64,000 nucleotides of DNA, taken from contig NZ_LBIA02000001.1 in assembly GCF_001006325.2 (NCBI RefSeq), positions 3,163,501-3,227,500 of the forward strand, written 5' to 3'. Shown one piece after another: positions 35,804 through 49,760 of this stretch (the stretch's first letter is position 1; every line of letters starts with the position of its first letter). The stretch is from Afipia massiliensis. GTDB taxonomy: Bacteria > Pseudomonadota > Alphaproteobacteria > Rhizobiales > Xanthobacteraceae. A program made the position numbers and the translations under genes. The notes below the pieces were generated by a model that made no database searches, was not told the DNA's origin, and saw only the letters and a list, made by a program, of their open reading frames with translations.

Positions 35804-40003
<4,200 letters not shown>

Positions 40004-41313: not shown

Positions 41314-41601
41314 AGGCTGGTGATCAACGAGAGGCTTCGTGACTGAAGCCTCGTGTCGAATAAGCCTAAGTTGGCAGAACAACTCGCTCTTTTGGCGGTA
41401 CGTCGGACAGCTTTCACCCATTTGGGGGATGAATCATACCGTCACCGTCTTAGTCTGTGGCCATTCTGTGACCAACCAAGACGTGCACACGATTTGGGGC
41501 AGGGCATACAAAGGGCGCGATAATTTGAAGCCATAGGACATGATCGCCTCGCGGTGATTATTTTGGTGTTCGTGGCTCCGGATAGTGAGTTTCATCTTCC
41601 A
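41314..41601. other. Intergenic region with hairpins; possible small RNA
   Basis: After the LuxR-type gene, GAGGCTTC/GAAGCCTC (41331-41352, loop GTGACT) forms a stem without a T run. Further on ATCGCC/GGTGAT makes a small stem near 41542-41557, and the segment ends at a good terminator (41602). No open frame with a ribosome binding site ends there, so an independent short transcript is possible. Confidence 0.35.
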
Positions 41602-41632
41602 TGGGTCGGCTTTTGCCGGCCCATTTTCTTTG
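41602..41632 (+). terminator. Rho-independent terminator without an obvious upstream gene
   Basis: TGGGTCGGC and GCCGGCCCA form a 9-bp stem (one G-U) with loop TTTT, followed by TTTTCTTTG. It lies 289 bases after the LuxR-type gene and 231 bases before the next start codon. Confidence 0.7.
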
Positions 41633-41863
41633 CTGGAGTATTCCGCTCCGCGGAACCGAGGTGGCCAATCCGCCCAAGCCCATGACTTCTGACCCGGGAA
41701 ATCCGGCCAAAATCGTCGGGAAATACCCCCGATTTCCGCACATTCAGCCTTTTTCGCCTCGGATCGTGGTTTGTTCATCTTCCCTTCAGATGAAAAACGC
41801 ATTTGTTTAGGCAGAGTTAGACCGGCGGTATTTCAAGAACGCCGGCGAGGGGCGAAGGACAGC

Positions 41864-43918
41864 ATGCTCGATCTGGCGATAGTCGGCGGTGGCCCAGGCG
41901 GGCTGATGAGTGCGTGGTACCTCAAGAAGAAGCTTGGGGCGCTCTGCCGTATCACCATCTATGAGGCCTCCGATCGGGTCGGCGGCAAAGTCCTGACGAA
42001 AAAATTCGACACCGCGCCTGCCATGTACGAAGCGGGCGTTGCCGAAATCTACGACTACTCCATGACGGGGCCGGACCCGCTGCGTGAGCTGGTCCAGCAT
42101 TTCGGATTGCAGACCATCCCGATGGACGCCGAGCAGGTGCAGATCGACGGCGAACTGCTGGACGACGTGCCGGGCATGCGCCGCAAATACGGCGCGCAGA
42201 CCGCGAAAGCCATCGAGGATTTCCGCAAGCTCTGCGCCGGCATGGTGTCGCCGATCGAATACTATGAAGGCGTCGGCGCGCACGACAACGAGCATCCCTG
42301 GGCGTACATCAGCGCCGAAGAACTGCTGGATCGCGAGGTGGCTGATCCGGTCGCCAAACGCTTCCTGAAAGTCATGGCGCGCTCCGACATCGCCACCGAA
42401 CCGCACAACACCAACGGCCTCAATGCGCTGAAGAACTTCGTGATGGATGTGGAGGGCTACATCGGCCTCTACTCGATCCAGAACGGCAACGAGCAGTTGA
42501 TCCACAGCCTGCAGAGCGAGATCGAGGCTGACATCCAGTTGAACCACCGCGTGCTGAAAGTCGGCAAGGCGGACTCCGGGCGCTATGCCATCAACATGAT
42601 GAACGGCAAGGCTCCTATCACCAAGGAACACGATCTCGTGGTGATGTGCCTGCCGCATTCGTGGCTCACCACCATGCGCTGGGACGGCGAGCTGCTGCGC
42701 CATTCGATGGTGAAGCACATCGCCTATTTCGATCGTCCCGCGCACTATCTGCGGGTCTCGATCCTGTTCGACGAACCGTTCTGGGGCGACAAGGTGCCTG
42801 GCGCGTGGTGGATGTCCGAGGCGTTCGGCGGCTGCTGCGTCTACGTCGAAGGCGCGCGGCACGATGTCGGCCGCCACGGCGTGCTGAACTGGCTGATCCC
42901 GGGCTCCGATGCGCTGGCCTTCGCCAATCTCAGCGACAAGGAACTCATCGATGCGGCGATCAAGTCGCTGCCAAAATCTTTAGGCAATGCGCGCGCGCAT
43001 TTCCTGGAGGGCAAGACCCATCGCTGGCTGTCATCGGTGAACAGCATTCCGGGCGGGTTGCCTGCACGCGATGTGATGACCAATCATCACCCCGAGCCGC
43101 ATGAGCATCCGGGTCTGGTCGTCGTCGGCGACTATCTGTTCGACTCGACACTGAACGGCCTGCTGGATTCCTCGGACGCCGCCACCGACATCATCCTGAC
43201 GCAGATGATCAAGCTGCGCTACGAGCGCGGCGAGGGCGGCAACGTGCCGTCCGACAAGATCGACCGCGCCTACTTCGACAACTATCGCAACCAGGGTCCC
43301 TACGGCGAGGTCTGGAGCAAGTTCACTGATCCGGACTATCTCACCAACCTGATCAAGATCGTCTGGAATCGCGCCAAGGGCTACAAGCTGCTGGTTGCGG
43401 GATCGGCGAGCGGCGAACTGGTCGGCGCGCTGCGGGAACGCGGCATCGATGCCTGGGGCGTCGAGAACAACCGCTACATCCACGGCAAGACGCCGAAGGC
43501 GCTGCGCAAGTACAACAAGCTTGGCTCGCTGACGAAACTGCCGTTCAAGGCAGGCGAGTTCGATTTCGTGTTTGAAACCAGCCTGTGTCATGTATCTGAC
43601 AAACAGGTGAAGCGCGCCGTGCGCGAGCTTAACCGCGTGGTGAAGACCGGCTTCGTGTTCGGATCGGTCACCAGCGACATGGTGCCCGCGCTGATCGACC
43701 GCTACGATCTGCTGCGCGGTGTCAAGAAACTGGGCACCTGGTGGGAATGGTCCGAGCTGTTCTTCGGCAACGGTTTCGACCTGTCCATGCATCGGCGCGA
43801 TACCACCGACGCGGTGTGGGATGCGACGCTCGCTGCCAACAAGGGGCCGGGCGACTGGTACGCGGACGCCGACAGCCTGCGCTATTCGTTCTTTGACAAG
43901 ATTGCGGACGACGACTAA
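41864..43918 (+). CDS. FAD-dependent amine-oxidase-like domain fused to a SAM methyltransferase domain
   Basis: ATG 41864 follows GAAGGA and starts directly at the dinucleotide-binding strand LAIVGGGPGGL (4-14), so it is chosen over upstream codons. Residues 1-~450 form a flavin amine-oxidase/desaturase fold, with YEASDRVGGK for the FAD ribose and VVVGDYLFDSTLNGLLDS (~416-435) as the C-terminal FAD motif. Residues ~480-684 form a class I methyltransferase, with motif I LLVAGSASGEL (509-519), an acidic VEN end of strand 2, and FDFVFETSLCHV as motif IV. The two activities in one chain are unusual. The substrate is unknown. An ABC exporter gene follows, beyond a palindromic repeat. Confidence 0.8.
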   Translation: MLDLAIVGGGPGGLMSAWYLKKKLGALCRITIYEASDRVGGKVLTKKFDTAPAMYEAGVAEIYDYSMTGPDPLRELVQHFGLQTIPMDAEQVQIDGELLDDVPGMRRKYGAQTAKAIEDFRKLCAGMVSPIEYYEGVGAHDNEHPWAYISAEELLDREVADPVAKRFLKVMARSDIATEPHNTNGLNALKNFVMDVEGYIGLYSIQNGNEQLIHSLQSEIEADIQLNHRVLKVGKADSGRYAINMMNGKAPITKEHDLVVMCLPHSWLTTMRWDGELLRHSMVKHIAYFDRPAHYLRVSILFDEPFWGDKVPGAWWMSEAFGGCCVYVEGARHDVGRHGVLNWLIPGSDALAFANLSDKELIDAAIKSLPKSLGNARAHFLEGKTHRWLSSVNSIPGGLPARDVMTNHHPEPHEHPGLVVVGDYLFDSTLNGLLDSSDAATDIILTQMIKLRYERGEGGNVPSDKIDRAYFDNYRNQGPYGEVWSKFTDPDYLTNLIKIVWNRAKGYKLLVAGSASGELVGALRERGIDAWGVENNRYIHGKTPKALRKYNKLGSLTKLPFKAGEFDFVFETSLCHVSDKQVKRAVRELNRVVKTGFVFGSVTSDMVPALIDRYDLLRGVKKLGTWWEWSELFFGNGFDLSMHRRDTTDAVWDATLAANKGPGDWYADADSLRYSFFDKIADDD

Positions 43919-43921
43919 TCG

Positions 43922-44085
43922 CTAGTGTGATGGTTCGCAAGTCCGCATCATTTCTACAGCACGTCCATTTGCGGACTTGCGAACCAAAACCACACTAGAA
44001 TTATAATTTCTAGTGTCCTTTTGAATCCGAAGTTCGCTATGGAAGATGCTGCAAAGTGAAGCGAACTTCGGATTCAGGACACTAG
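43922..44085. repeat. Tandem long palindromic repeats
   Basis: Two long inverted repeats lie head to tail. The first (43922-43998) pairs CTAGTGTG and GGTTCGCAAGTCCGCA with TGCGGACTTGCGAACC and CACACTAG. The second (44010-44085) pairs CTAGTGTCC and GAATCCGAAGTTCGC with GCGAACTTCGGATTC and GGACACTAG. The 11-base AT spacer itself sits in a third dyad (CACTAGAA / TTCTAGTG). Repeats of the GAATCCGAAGTTCGC type are interspersed in Bradyrhizobium relatives. Confidence 0.8.
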
Positions 44086-44154: not shown

Positions 44155-46116
44155 ATGTCGACCAAGCCGCCCACCCCGGATACCGACAAGCCAGAGTCGG
44201 GCAAGCCGCTCGATGATGAAGCTGCGCGCCTTGCCGCAGCGGCTCAGGCCGATATTCCGGCGCCGCCGGAGCCGGACGATATCGACGACGATGACGACGA
44301 CGAGGATCTCGTCGCCTATACCGCGAGCGAGGCCGCGGGTGCGTTCGCAACGTTGTGGCGGTTCACCTGGCCGCAACTGCGCAACTACAAGACCTGGCTC
44401 AGCTTCGTCGCGATCGGTCTTTTCATCGAGACGTTGTTCAACGTCATCATGCCGCTCAGCCTGAAATTCCTGATCGACGATGCGCTCGGCGAGGAAGATT
44501 TCCAGGCGCTCTACACCATCCTGACCGTGCTGGCGGTCGCCGGCATCATCACTTCCATTGTGGCGGTCTGGTACGAACGCTGGGACGCACGGCTGGCCGC
44601 CGCCGTCATCTCCGATGTTCGCGGGCGGCTTTTCTCGCATGTCCAGAATTTGCCTGCCGCCTTCTTCGGGCGCACCAAGCGCGGTGAAATCCTGTCGCGG
44701 TTCTCCGTCGACATGGCGGGCTACGAATCCTCGATCAAGCACTTCGCCAACGGCGCGATGCTGCCGTTCCTCGAATTGATCGCCGGCATCGGCCTGATGA
44801 TCTGGCTGAACTGGCAGTTGGCCGCCGTGGCGCTGCTGATATTTCCCATCACGCTGATCGGTCCGCGCATCCTGACCCCGAAGGCGGTGCAGGCGAACTA
44901 CGAGCAGAAGGTCAACGAATCCGCGATCCTCGGCGTGGTGCAGGAGAATGTCGCGGCGCAGATGGTGGTGAAGGCATTCGGCCTGCAGCGCAAGGCGTTC
45001 GGCTGGTTCACCTTCCGCAACAACGCGGCGCGGCGCTCGATGGCCGACGCGACGTTTCTCTCAACCATGGTGGAGCGCACCGTTACGGTGTCGGTGCTGC
45101 TGCTGCATCTGATCGTGCTGGCGATCGGCGCCTATCTCGCCACCATCGGCAAGATTTCGATCGGCACCTTCGTGACCTTCGAAAGCGCGTTCTGGGAAAT
45201 CTCCTACAACATCGCGCACCTGATGCACTTTATTCCGGTCGCGATCCAGGCCGCTGCCTCCGTTCGGCATATGGAGGAACTCCTTGATGAGCCGACCCGC
45301 GGCGCCGACCGGCCCGGCGCGCCGGATCTGCCGCGCATCACCGACAACATCAACTTCGACCGCGTTGTCTTCAAGTATGAAGGCAGTGACGCCGCCGTAC
45401 TCGACGGTCTCTCGCTCAAGATCGGCGTCGGCAAGAATGTCGCCATCGTGGGACCGAGCGGGTCCGGCAAGAGCACGCTGCTCAATCTCATTCTGCGTCT
45501 CTACGAACCGAGCGAAGGCAAGGTGACCGTCGACGGCGTCGATATTCGCAAGGTGACGCGCGACTCGCTGCGCAACAGCATGGCTGTGGTGTTCCAGGAA
45601 AACATGCTGTTCAACATGTCGATCCGCGAGAACATCCGCCTCGGCAAGGAAGGCGCGACCGACGCCGAGGTCGTGGATGCGGCGAAGAAGGCCGAGATCC
45701 ATCGCTACATCATGACGCTGCCGCAGAAGTACGACACGGTGGTCGGCGAGCGCGGCGACACGTTGTCCGGCGGTCAGCGCCAGCGCATCGCGATTGCGCG
45801 CGCCATCGTGCGCAACCCGTCCGTGCTACTGCTCGATGAAGCGACGTCGGCGCTCGACCAGACCACGGAAGCCGCGATCAACCGCACGCTGTTGAAGGTC
45901 GCCAAGGGCCGCACCATGATCTTCTCGACCCACCGGCTGACGTCGGTGGTCGACATGGATGAAATCATCGTCATCAGCAACGGCCAGGCCATCGAGCGCG
46001 GCCCGCATGCCGAACTGCTCAAGGCTAACGGCATGTACCGGAAGCTATGGGACGACCAGCTTCACAAGTCGCATCATCCCACCGAGGATGACGACGACGA
46101 TGATGACGACGATTGA
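44155..46116 (+). CDS. ABC exporter (fused membrane and ATPase domains) with Asp-rich ends
   Basis: The 653-residue half-transporter has six membrane segments in ~70-370 and an ATPase domain with Walker A GPSGSGKST (433-441), signature LSGGQ (537-541) and Walker B LLLDEAT (Asp561-Glu562). Half-transporters of this type dimerise to export lipids, peptides or small molecules. Unusual features are the cytoplasmic N-terminus containing DDIDDDDDDED (~41-51) and a C-terminus of HHPTE followed by about nine aspartates. It follows the FAD/methyltransferase fusion and may export that enzyme's product, which is inference. The palindromic repeat fills the gap between them. Confidence 0.92.
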   Translation: MSTKPPTPDTDKPESGKPLDDEAARLAAAAQADIPAPPEPDDIDDDDDDEDLVAYTASEAAGAFATLWRFTWPQLRNYKTWLSFVAIGLFIETLFNVIMPLSLKFLIDDALGEEDFQALYTILTVLAVAGIITSIVAVWYERWDARLAAAVISDVRGRLFSHVQNLPAAFFGRTKRGEILSRFSVDMAGYESSIKHFANGAMLPFLELIAGIGLMIWLNWQLAAVALLIFPITLIGPRILTPKAVQANYEQKVNESAILGVVQENVAAQMVVKAFGLQRKAFGWFTFRNNAARRSMADATFLSTMVERTVTVSVLLLHLIVLAIGAYLATIGKISIGTFVTFESAFWEISYNIAHLMHFIPVAIQAAASVRHMEELLDEPTRGADRPGAPDLPRITDNINFDRVVFKYEGSDAAVLDGLSLKIGVGKNVAIVGPSGSGKSTLLNLILRLYEPSEGKVTVDGVDIRKVTRDSLRNSMAVVFQENMLFNMSIRENIRLGKEGATDAEVVDAAKKAEIHRYIMTLPQKYDTVVGERGDTLSGGQRQRIAIARAIVRNPSVLLLDEATSALDQTTEAAINRTLLKVAKGRTMIFSTHRLTSVVDMDEIIVISNGQAIERGPHAELLKANGMYRKLWDDQLHKSHHPTEDDDDDDDDD

Positions 46117-46126
46117 TCGGTGAGGG

Positions 46127-46143
46127 GCAGCCGTTACGGCTGC
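46127..46143. other. Hairpin between convergent genes
   Basis: GCAGCCG and CGGCTGC form a 7-bp stem whose TTA loop is the stop codon of the minus-strand flavoprotein gene. It lies 10 bases after the ABC exporter stop. It may serve as a shared 3' end. Confidence 0.35.
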
Positions 46144-47300
46144 GCCGTCCGCCGGACCGACAGCGTTTCGCGCGCATGGCGCAACGCGCCGACCACGGCG
46201 CGATGCAGGAAGCGGGTCCAGCGCCGGAGATGCCACGACAAACCGGTATCGATGGAAATCGAACGCAGGTCGTAGGCCTGACGTTGTGAAGAAGCGTCGT
46301 TGGCGCACTTTTCCGGATCGTCGTAGAACTGCGAGATCTTTGCTGCGTCCATGCCCGTGCTGGCCAGCCACGCCGGGATGTAGGCGTTGCACAGCCGTTG
46401 CACATCCATGAACACCTTGCCGGTTCCGGTGCCGGCAGCAGGGCACGATGTGCAGAACGCGTCGCCGACCAGAACGATGCCGGCTTGCCGGTGCCCCTTG
46501 GTGACGTACAAGTCCGCCGGTCGAATCTTGATCATGCCGTCGACCTTGAACTCGCCGGAGAGGGCGCGAAGGTTCGGCATCAGTTCGTGAATGGCATTCT
46601 CGGGCGTCTGGCGCATGCGCCGCAGCCACGGATCGTCCATGCCGCGATAGACCATGAGATTGGCGCGCATGGCGGAGCCGATCGGGAACAGCGTCAGATA
46701 AGACATCTGCGCCGCCGAGTTCTCCGTGAAATAGGTCAGTGCGGGAAATTCAAACGTGTCGCGGCCCACCGGCGCGACATTGAATCCGACGGTGATGGAA
46801 TGACAGGGGCTGATGACCTCGCGCTCGATGCCGAGGGTGTGGCGCAGGCTGATGTTCAGGCCGTTCGCCAGCACGATCAGCCGCGCGGAAATTTCTTCGC
46901 CATTTGACAGCGTCAACGTCTGGCGATCGGGACTGGTTGCGACGGCTGTGATCTTGGCTTCGATGAAATCGACGCTGTCCGGAATCTGGCGGCGGACGGT
47001 GTTGACGAGGTCGTCGTAGATGATGCCGTGCTGGTCGCTGGGCTTCTTGTCGAGCAGGCGTCCCAGCCGGGCGGTCCAGGCGCTGCGGTCGAGCGTGGTG
47101 GCGGCAAGCACCGCTTCCGAAATTCCGGTCTTGCGCAGAAGGTCGAGCTGATAGCCGCCGAGCTTTTCGCAGCGGAAGTCTGGCGGATAGATTTTGTGAG
47201 GATCGACCAGGATCGCGGAAATGCCGGCGCGGCCAAGCATCGCGGCGGCCGTCGATCCGGCAAGCCCGCCACCAATGATGGCGATGTCCGTATGCCGCAT
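46134..47300 (-). CDS. FAD-dependent oxidoreductase/monooxygenase-like flavoprotein
   Basis: ATG 47300 is chosen because GAGG lies 8 bases upstream and the Rossmann strand follows at once (HTDIAIIGGGLAGSTAAAMLG); a longer frame starts at 47330. The 388 residues show FAD motifs GxGxxG at 10-15 and a late GDAFCTSCPAAGTG around 280-295, placing it with group A monooxygenases, geranylgeranyl reductases and halogenases. The halogenase WxWxIP motif is not seen. The substrate is unknown. It is convergent with the ABC exporter and divergent from the acyltransferase-like gene. Confidence 0.82.
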   Translation of the reverse strand: MRHTDIAIIGGGLAGSTAAAMLGRAGISAILVDPHKIYPPDFRCEKLGGYQLDLLRKTGISEAVLAATTLDRSAWTARLGRLLDKKPSDQHGIIYDDLVNTVRRQIPDSVDFIEAKITAVATSPDRQTLTLSNGEEISARLIVLANGLNISLRHTLGIEREVISPCHSITVGFNVAPVGRDTFEFPALTYFTENSAAQMSYLTLFPIGSAMRANLMVYRGMDDPWLRRMRQTPENAIHELMPNLRALSGEFKVDGMIKIRPADLYVTKGHRQAGIVLVGDAFCTSCPAAGTGTGKVFMDVQRLCNAYIPAWLASTGMDAAKISQFYDDPEKCANDASSQRQAYDLRSISIDTGLSWHLRRWTRFLHRAVVGALRHARETLSVRRTAQP

Positions 47301-47561
47301 GTTTTTGGCCTCTTTCGAGGTACTTAGCACCGCGGCTGCAAACTCGACTAAAGCTTGAACGAAATATGGTGAACGGTTGGTTAAGCGAATGCTGCAGAAA
47401 CACGTGTATTAACGATTAAAATGGTTGCGACTTGCCTGCGTCGTGCGGTCGCAGCACTAATGTTCCGGGACGACTTTTGGTTCTTGGATATCAGTCGTGC
47501 ACCCGCAATCAGGTACCGCGAGAATGCGGCTTCGAGGCGCATTGGCGCAGGTTTGGCCTTC

Positions 47562-48692
47562 ATGATTTCAGTTACCGTCGCAACGCCGGGCCAGGACCTC
47601 ACCGCGCAGTGGAATGATCTCATTCGCCGCGCGCCTGGCAATGCATTCATGAATCCGGTGGCGCTCAAGGCGGCGTTCGACACCATGTTCGCGGCGGTTT
47701 ATGTGCTGCTGGCTTGGGAGGAGGGCGTCGAGTCCGCGCGGCTGGTGGGGCTTTGGGCCTTGCAGCATCGCAACGTCATGATGCTCTGGCCGGCGCTGCT
47801 CGAAGCCCGCCCGTTCAACTACGCTTTTTTATCGACGCCGGTGATCGATCCCGCCTTCGCCGCCGAAGTCATGCCTGCATTCTTCGCCGCAATCCGCAAA
47901 AACCCCGCGCTGCCGAATGTGGTCAGCCTGAAGGAAATGGATGCGGACTCGCAGGCCTATGCGGCAATTCAAAAGACGATCGCGGACGAGCATCACGCGC
48001 ATCTGACGCTCACCCGGAGTTTGCGGCCGTCGGTGTCGCGCGAAAAGGGCGTCAAGAATTCAGGCTCGACCCGCAAGAAGCTGCGGCAGGACTGGAACAG
48101 GCTGTCCGCCCTGGGCAGGCTGGAGATGGTCAACGAGCGTACCGCGGACGCGACAAAGGCCGCTTACGAGCAGTTTCTCGATCTCGAAAAGCGAAGCTGG
48201 AAGGGCGACAAGGGCACCGCGATCCTTTGTAGCGAGCGGGATGCCGAATTCACCCGGCGGCTGATTGGCGATCTCGCGGCGGAGGGCAACGCCTCGGTGG
48301 CCCTGCTGCGCCTCGATGGGCGGGCCATCGCGGCCCAGGTGCTGATGTATTGCGGGACCACGGCCTTTACGTGGAAAATCGCGTTTGACGCCGAATTCGC
48401 CAAATACTCCCCGGGCGTGCTGCTGGTCGACAAAATGACCGAGCAACTCTTCGCTGAGACCGATGTTCAGGCCATCGATTCGTGCTCGGCGGAGGGGAGT
48501 TTCATGGCCCAGATCTGGACCGGCCGGAAAACCATGGTCGACATGGTGGTCGACGTCGGCTCCACCCGTTCGCTGGTGTTCGGCATGGAGGCGGCCCGGC
48601 AGTACGGCTATGAGCGGCTGCGCGACCTGCGGGACTGGTTGCGATCGACTTCCCTAAGCCCGGCAAAGCGGCGGCTGGCGCCATCGTCATAG
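47562..48692 (+). CDS. BioF2/FemAB-like GNAT-fold acyltransferase
   Basis: From ATG 47562 the protein has 376 residues. The frame is open upstream to ATG 47421 (423 residues), but the recognisable domain starts near ISVTVATPGQDLTAQW; neither start has a strong ribosome binding site. The C-terminal half is a GNAT fold with TKAAYEQFLDLEKRSWKGDKGTA and VALLRLDGRAIAAQVLMYCG, as in CelD/BcsL and BioF2-like proteins linked to cell-envelope or polysaccharide modification. The later FAKYSPGVLLVDKM segment is typical of that family. The donor and acceptor are unknown. It is divergent from the flavoprotein gene. Confidence 0.75.
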   Translation: MISVTVATPGQDLTAQWNDLIRRAPGNAFMNPVALKAAFDTMFAAVYVLLAWEEGVESARLVGLWALQHRNVMMLWPALLEARPFNYAFLSTPVIDPAFAAEVMPAFFAAIRKNPALPNVVSLKEMDADSQAYAAIQKTIADEHHAHLTLTRSLRPSVSREKGVKNSGSTRKKLRQDWNRLSALGRLEMVNERTADATKAAYEQFLDLEKRSWKGDKGTAILCSERDAEFTRRLIGDLAAEGNASVALLRLDGRAIAAQVLMYCGTTAFTWKIAFDAEFAKYSPGVLLVDKMTEQLFAETDVQAIDSCSAEGSFMAQIWTGRKTMVDMVVDVGSTRSLVFGMEAARQYGYERLRDLRDWLRSTSLSPAKRRLAPSS

Positions 48693-49388: not shown

Positions 49389-49760
49389 ATGCCGACGATC
49401 AACCAGCTGATCGCGAAACCACGCGAAGCGCAGAAGTCGCGCAAGAAGGTGCCAGCGCTGCAGCAGTCGCCGCAGAAGCGTGGCGTTTGCACGCGCGTCT
49501 ATACGACGACTCCGAAGAAGCCGAACTCCGCGCTTCGTAAGGTCGCCAAGGTGCGTCTGACCAACGGCTTCGAGGTCATCGGCTACATTCCGGGTGAAGG
49601 CCACAACCTTCAGGAGCACTCGGTGGTCATGATCCGCGGCGGCCGCGTCAAGGATTTGCCCGGCGTTCGTTACCACATTCTCCGCGGCGTCCTCGATACG
49701 CAGGGCGTCAAGAACCGCAAGCAGCGCCGTTCGAAGTACGGCGCGAAGCGTCCGAAGTAA
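49389..49760 (+). CDS. rpsL: 30S ribosomal protein S12
   Basis: The 123-residue protein has the invariant decoding-centre loop [11 protein letters not shown], with Lys43 unmutated (streptomycin-sensitive type), and KDLPGVRYH with the second conserved lysine and the Asp that is often thiomethylated. It is the first gene of the str operon; rpsG follows after 15 bases. Confidence 0.99.

Follow-up and report, generated by a model that had tools for sequence, protein, structure and literature searches.

Between rpoC and rpsL in the window (the whole stretch of 64,000 nucleotides that was analysed) lies a gene encoding a 684-residue chain, in which an FAD oxidoreductase of the amine-oxidase family precedes a class I SAM methyltransferase (Table 1). 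As the first-pass annotation had recognised, one open reading frame (ORF) spans both domains, and both score above their Pfam gathering cut-offs: Amino_oxidase (PF01593) covers residues 12-432 (E 4e-28; 99.3 bits against a cut-off of 19.8) and Methyltransf_11 covers residues 512-596 (E 2.4e-8; 34.9 bits against 21.2). The same two domains exceed their cut-offs in all four distant fusion members tested. The ORF is real; its start, M1, is invariant in 44/44 aligned orthologues, and its product is 100% identical to a protein of Afipia massiliensis DSM 17498 (L021). The fusion is not a chance product, since it occurs as a single copy in its own genome and is conserved across families. At the level of sequence, the domain matches support the presence of a complete FAD fold in the predicted protein. 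AlphaFold gave poor models for the full-length fusion (44-row alignment; mean pLDDT 48.9) and for the FAD half alone (64 rows; mean pLDDT 51.9); the alignments were shallow because the input relatives are 80-98% identical to the window protein, and the models were set aside.

Table 1. Features of the fusion locus and of the loci compared with it (window coordinates unless a locus or contig is named).
Feature	Position	Strand	Basis or comment
rpoC	35804-40003		5′ of the fusion gene
Terminator-like hairpin 5′ of the fusion gene	41601-41624	+	Consensus match only; 6 such sites against 4.2 expected
Shine-Dalgarno-like GAAGGA	41854-41859	+	Read directly; 4 nt 5′ of ATG
Fusion gene, FAD oxidoreductase (amine-oxidase family) + class I SAM methyltransferase, 684 aa	41864-43918	+	Open ORF, Pfam
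FAD half, residues ~1-452	41864-43219	+	Pfam, alignment of motifs
Linker, residues ~453-495	43220-43348	+	Lowest conservation of the chain in most pairs (dN/dS 0.11-0.50)
Methyltransferase half, residues ~496-684	43349-43915	+	Pfam, motif alignment
Perfect inverted repeat (9 bp) in the fusion-exporter gap	43992-44016		Exact form in 4/253 loci, all nearest relatives
ABCB-type exporter, half transporter, MsbA/Sav1866-like	44155-46116	+	Pfam ABC_membrane + ABC_tran; invariant type-A partner
Variable cassette, FAD-binding monooxygenase beside GNAT-type gene	46134-47330; 47421-48692	-; +	
rpsL	49389-49760		3′ of the fusion gene
Type-B partner	L137: 7172-8062; L138: 10502-11338; L144: 10057-10908; L145: 10312-11154	- (L137)	In place of the exporter
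Separate CMAS + DUF1365 + amine-oxidase row of the host	L190: 2639-6147; G000, C1: 3800000-3810000	- (L190)	UfaM-UfaO-UfaD-like furan fatty acid operon

The FAD half carries the motifs G8xG10xxG13...E34...R38-G40G41 and G422D423...N431G432, which are invariant in every covering row of a 107-row alignment. Outside these motifs, the polar or aromatic residues K190, H285, D290, Y295, and W307 are also invariant in this alignment. The lysine of the KV..PFW segment, which we take to be the active-site lysine of amine oxidases lying near flavin N5, aligns to Arg297 of the fusion in two alignments, including that with the PDB profile, and arginine occupies this position in 107/107 rows. Amine-oxidase activity is therefore doubtful, as the catalytic-lysine position is held by an invariant arginine. 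The first-pass description of this half as amine-oxidase-like stands for the PF01593 profile and the FAD motifs and becomes questionable where it would extend to activity.

When a profile of the FAD half built from ten members was compared with solved chains, putrescine oxidase was the best match (E 1.7e-14, residues 4-378), followed by matches to MAO-A, L-amino acid oxidase, and MAO-B; no chain named UfaD occurred among the 60 best PDB matches. Putrescine oxidase and the MAO enzymes share the PF01593 domain family with the fusion, but possess Lys at the position of Arg297, and the fusion adds a methyltransferase. Among ten amine-oxidase-type proteins drawn from the genomes surveyed, the highest scores with the FAD-half profile belonged to UfaD-like proteins, although these were weak (21.5 and 20.4 bits), and an hhalign comparison with UfaD-like proteins gave 95-97% probability while covering only residues ~2-287.

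In the methyltransferase half, SAM motif I (L510..G513..G517) and the acidic residue E534 are invariant in every covering row of the 107, and D567 is invariant. A check for the loss of FAD- or SAM-binding residues thus found every one of them retained wherever a row covers it; the gaps in the motifs come from the frameshifted locus L033, the extraction of L145, and the truncated contig L036. By their sequences, both halves look functional. Against solved chains, the methyltransferase half returned generic matches only, to the LahSB peptide methyltransferase (E 5.6e-10) and to O-methyltransferases. Its top stand-alone match among the loci compared was L106 (53.9 bits), where we read the neighbouring ORFs as NDP-sugar, glycosyltransferase, and ABC-2 genes of a putative surface polysaccharide cluster; with such neighbours, a sugar substrate would fit equally. 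As judged by profile comparison, the half is not of the CMAS type: the fusion protein has no match to PF02353 (CMAS) at E 0.1, the profile of the C-terminal half scores 11-14 bits against L181 and L178, no other CMAS locus being among the matches listed, and hhalign against the host's own UfaM-like protein gives a weak 50% over 69 columns.

The first-pass annotation knew of no characterised enzyme with this domain order, a claim that plant enzymes show to be too strong. According to the available text on the cotton (GhCPS) and Sterculia cyclopropane synthases (CPS), these have an N-terminal FAD oxidase and a C-terminal SAM methyltransferase in one chain, the cotton oxidase extension being ~400 residues long and containing an FAD motif (PMC3132707). 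The same source notes that in Agrobacterium and mycobacteria the oxidase and synthase are encoded separately, by neighbouring genes, and Arabidopsis AT3G23510 is reported to match both UfaM and UfaD (PMC10940516). The plant enzymes thus share with the bacterial fusion a single chain with the FAD oxidase first and the SAM methyltransferase second. However, their methyltransferase is of the CMAS/UfaM family, whereas that of the bacterial fusion is of the Methyltransf_11 type without a CMAS match, and the available parts of the two reports mention no linked exporter (PMC3132707; PMC10940516), unlike the type-A fusion described below. A second known arrangement is MnmC, which, as far as the accessible text goes, is a bifunctional single chain in which FAD-dependent oxidation is followed by SAM-dependent methylation, with active sites ~45 Å apart, and for which its authors deem substrate channelling implausible (PMC3648344). 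Unlike the fusion, MnmC places the methyltransferase first, has a glycine-oxidase-like FAD domain, and acts on the tRNA wobble uridine; the MnmC model is absent from the 19 NCBIfam matches. FAD-oxidase/SAM-methyltransferase fusions are therefore known from plant lipid modification and, in reverse order, from tRNA modification. The presence of both activities in one chain and the FAD-first order are already known; what is new is a family with another methyltransferase type, an FAD domain with Arg in place of Lys, and either a dedicated exporter or a different partner in its stead. Among the papers listed by searches of the open-access literature, none treats this family.

A third comparison concerns UfaD, described in the accessible text as a desaturase whose action on phospholipid chains follows that of the methylase UfaM (PMC7380195). 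In Rhodobacter and Rhodopseudomonas, UfaD and UfaM provide an FAD desaturase and a SAM methylase working sequentially on one lipid (PMC7380195), but they differ from the fusion in being separate genes with a CMAS methylase and a DUF1365 partner. The domain order of the plant fusion, together with the rank of UfaD-like proteins among the ten compared with the FAD half, would be consistent with a fused UfaD-UfaM pathway for furan fatty acids (or cyclopropanes) on phospholipid acyl chains. This explanation is unlikely given the absence of a PF02353 match, the low CMAS scores, the weak alignment with the host's UfaM-like protein, and the PDB profile that places the FAD half nearest putrescine oxidase and MAO. 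In addition, the fusion is not simply this pathway fused, because the host carries the CMAS, DUF1365, and amine-oxidase genes as a separate operon (Table 1); on this operon and on the methyltransferase comparisons, membership of a fused UfaD-UfaM group was rejected.

The search for the fusion covered the phylum and below, plasmid records, and genome contigs, the last for close relatives only. It was found in 117/296 genomes of the window's own family (103/231 of those of good quality), representing 14 of 47 genera, in 34/397 genomes of the order, and in 4/385 genomes of the class, of which two lie beyond the order. All 11 carriers among the 398 genomes drawn from the phylum belong to the window's own family. 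Six further families carry the fusion at 39-42% identity to the window protein, the range across 12 aligned members being 39-84%, while none of 72,556 plasmid records held most of it. In 110/117 family genomes the chain lies in one open frame (one of which runs to the contig end), and none of the seven split or partial cases breaks at the domain junction. The split sites fall at residue ~349 in G071 (L202), near 46 in G018 (C3), and near 365-372 in G1327 (C523); these genes and L033, all interrupted within the FAD domain, probably reflect gene breakage or faulty assembly. Another four are incomplete (G1282, starting at a contig edge; G1315, on two contigs; G1321; G1345). The alternative that separate genes are the rule was rejected, as every match is fused and the splits fall inside the FAD domain. 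With one open frame in nearly all carriers and members down to 39% identity, the fusion is the rule in its family, and it is old. Relatives from many soil bacteria retain the fused form and, beside it, a gene for a membrane protein, most often the exporter.

Trees built separately for each half from 16 sequences agree on three deep clades, supported at 99-100, which indicates that the halves travelled together. Both halves are under purifying selection: across eight pairs, the FAD half had dN/dS values of 0.07-0.17 and the methyltransferase half values of 0.07-0.25, and in most pairs the linker exceeded both. These values bear on the proposal that the methyltransferase alone is catalytic on the substrate, with the FAD domain serving as a stabilising, redox-sensing, or regulatory module. 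Such a role would agree with the replacement of the usual amine-oxidase lysine by Arg, and, as the accessible text reports, cotton cyclopropane synthase lacking its 409-residue oxidase keeps ~30% of its activity (PMC3132707). However, conservation is stronger in the FAD half, which has the lower dN/dS in 7/8 pairs and whose invariant polar and aromatic residues reach beyond the FAD motifs, as would be expected for an active site. We regard a purely accessory FAD domain as improbable, if somewhat easier to entertain than the fused UfaD-UfaM pathway.

The exporter gene that the first-pass annotation noted after the fusion proved to be a constant partner in what we term type A. It lies directly 3′ of the fusion on the same strand in 79/79 testable loci of the set L021-L100, one more locus being left out for too little downstream DNA, and in 10/10 loci of a distant family whose chromosomal neighbourhood differs. 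In a search of 12 genomes, an exporter orthologue was present in both type-A genomes (75% and 43% identity) and in 0/10 others, namely eight related genomes without the fusion and two of type B, whose best ABC matches reached 32-36%. The exporter shares the half-transporter layout of ABC_membrane and ABC_tran with MsbA, Sav1866, and ABCB4, but differs from them in its acidic N- and C-terminal tails and in scoring under the cut-offs of the named NCBIfam models: it reaches 376.7 bits with the MsbA model TIGR02203 (cut-off 602) and stays below the cut-offs of all named subfamilies among the matches listed. Both tails are strongly acidic, with runs of Asp and Glu, and acidic N-terminal runs recur in the exporters of the distant family (L101, L139, L140, L146, L147). 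Among solved structures, the exporter is as near to broad ABCB pumps as to lipid flippases. One genome, G1309, has a second type-A copy.

In type B, defined on L137, L138, L144, and L145, the exporter is absent and an undescribed protein of ~280 residues stands in its place. A fresh test on six more loci of the ~41% identity class, from five other genomes, found this partner adjoining the fusion in 6/6 and the exporter in 0/6; L124 and L136, which lie on short contigs, are outside the downstream-gene counts. The partner has no significant Pfam family in 4/4 cases and a single predicted C-terminal membrane helix in 4/4. Its C-terminus may resemble that of DUF155/RMD1 proteins. A profile built from the four defining loci did not find it in 11 other genomes searched. 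Two copies of the partner lie near the fusion in G086 (L257, L258), and G1382 carries two type-B loci. The exchange of partners weighs on a further explanation, in which the fusion would be a soluble secondary-metabolite or polyamine-type enzyme and a drug-type ABC pump would expel its product or a toxic intermediate, with no lipid involved. Although the putrescine oxidase and MAO matches of the FAD half and the resemblance of the exporter to multidrug pumps would fit this arrangement, the FAD half carries Arg where Lys is conserved in amine oxidases, and the replacement of the pump by a tail-anchored protein suggests that what the two types share is the membrane and not efflux. We consider it improbable.

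The reading preferred here, to which we assign a probability of about one half, is a bifunctional enzyme that oxidises and methylates one shared molecule, with a product handled at the membrane. The FAD domain would dehydrogenate or oxidise a small molecule, probably hydrophobic or lipid-linked, and the tethered class I methyltransferase would methylate either that molecule itself or what the first step makes of it. In type A, including Afipia, the dedicated ABC exporter would carry the product through the inner membrane or release it from there, while in type B the tail-anchored membrane protein would stand in for the exporter, either moving or holding the product. We infer that both halves are catalytic on a shared substrate and that the exporter carries the product; its adjacency is linkage and no proof of function. 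Two observations suggest that the substrate is membrane-associated, namely the occurrence of one or the other of two membrane partners and the use of lipids by the look-alike systems; a sugar or soluble metabolite is also possible. Counted against the preferred reading as a whole are the lack of a specific relative for the methyltransferase half, the dispensability of the plant oxidase domain for the methyltransferase reaction in the available account (PMC3132707), and the resemblance of the exporter to broad ABCB pumps. A more tentative proposal is that this undescribed family couples a non-standard oxidation, with Arg at the Lys position, to methylation of one membrane-associated molecule, which would be passed to a dedicated flippase/exporter or, in the second lineage, to the undescribed tail-anchored protein; Bradyrhizobium, Afipia, and their relatives would then export a new lipid or lipid-like metabolite. 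The bacterial family combines a different methyltransferase, a fusion kept across families at ~40% identity, and one of two membrane partners; since the fusion is conserved beside one of these adjacent partners, its product and pathway are directly testable genetically.

Other elements of the locus were considered and rejected. Assignment to a defence system was dismissed, as the PADLOC matches comprise only a desaturase-type model on the FAD fold and generic ABC ATPases. The inverted repeat between the fusion and exporter genes is probably not general, its exact form being confined to the nearest relatives, and it was discarded as a general signal. The remaining neighbours vary: a LuxR-type gene upstream occurs in 25, an FAD monooxygenase in 51, and a GNAT gene in 17 of 64 long loci, as against the constant exporter, and none was retained as a pathway member. 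In the window, the monooxygenase and GNAT-type genes form the variable cassette listed in Table 1. The GNAT-type gene scores 121 bits with the BspF effector model (cut-off 775), and a second monooxygenase copy is present in L074, L076, and L092.
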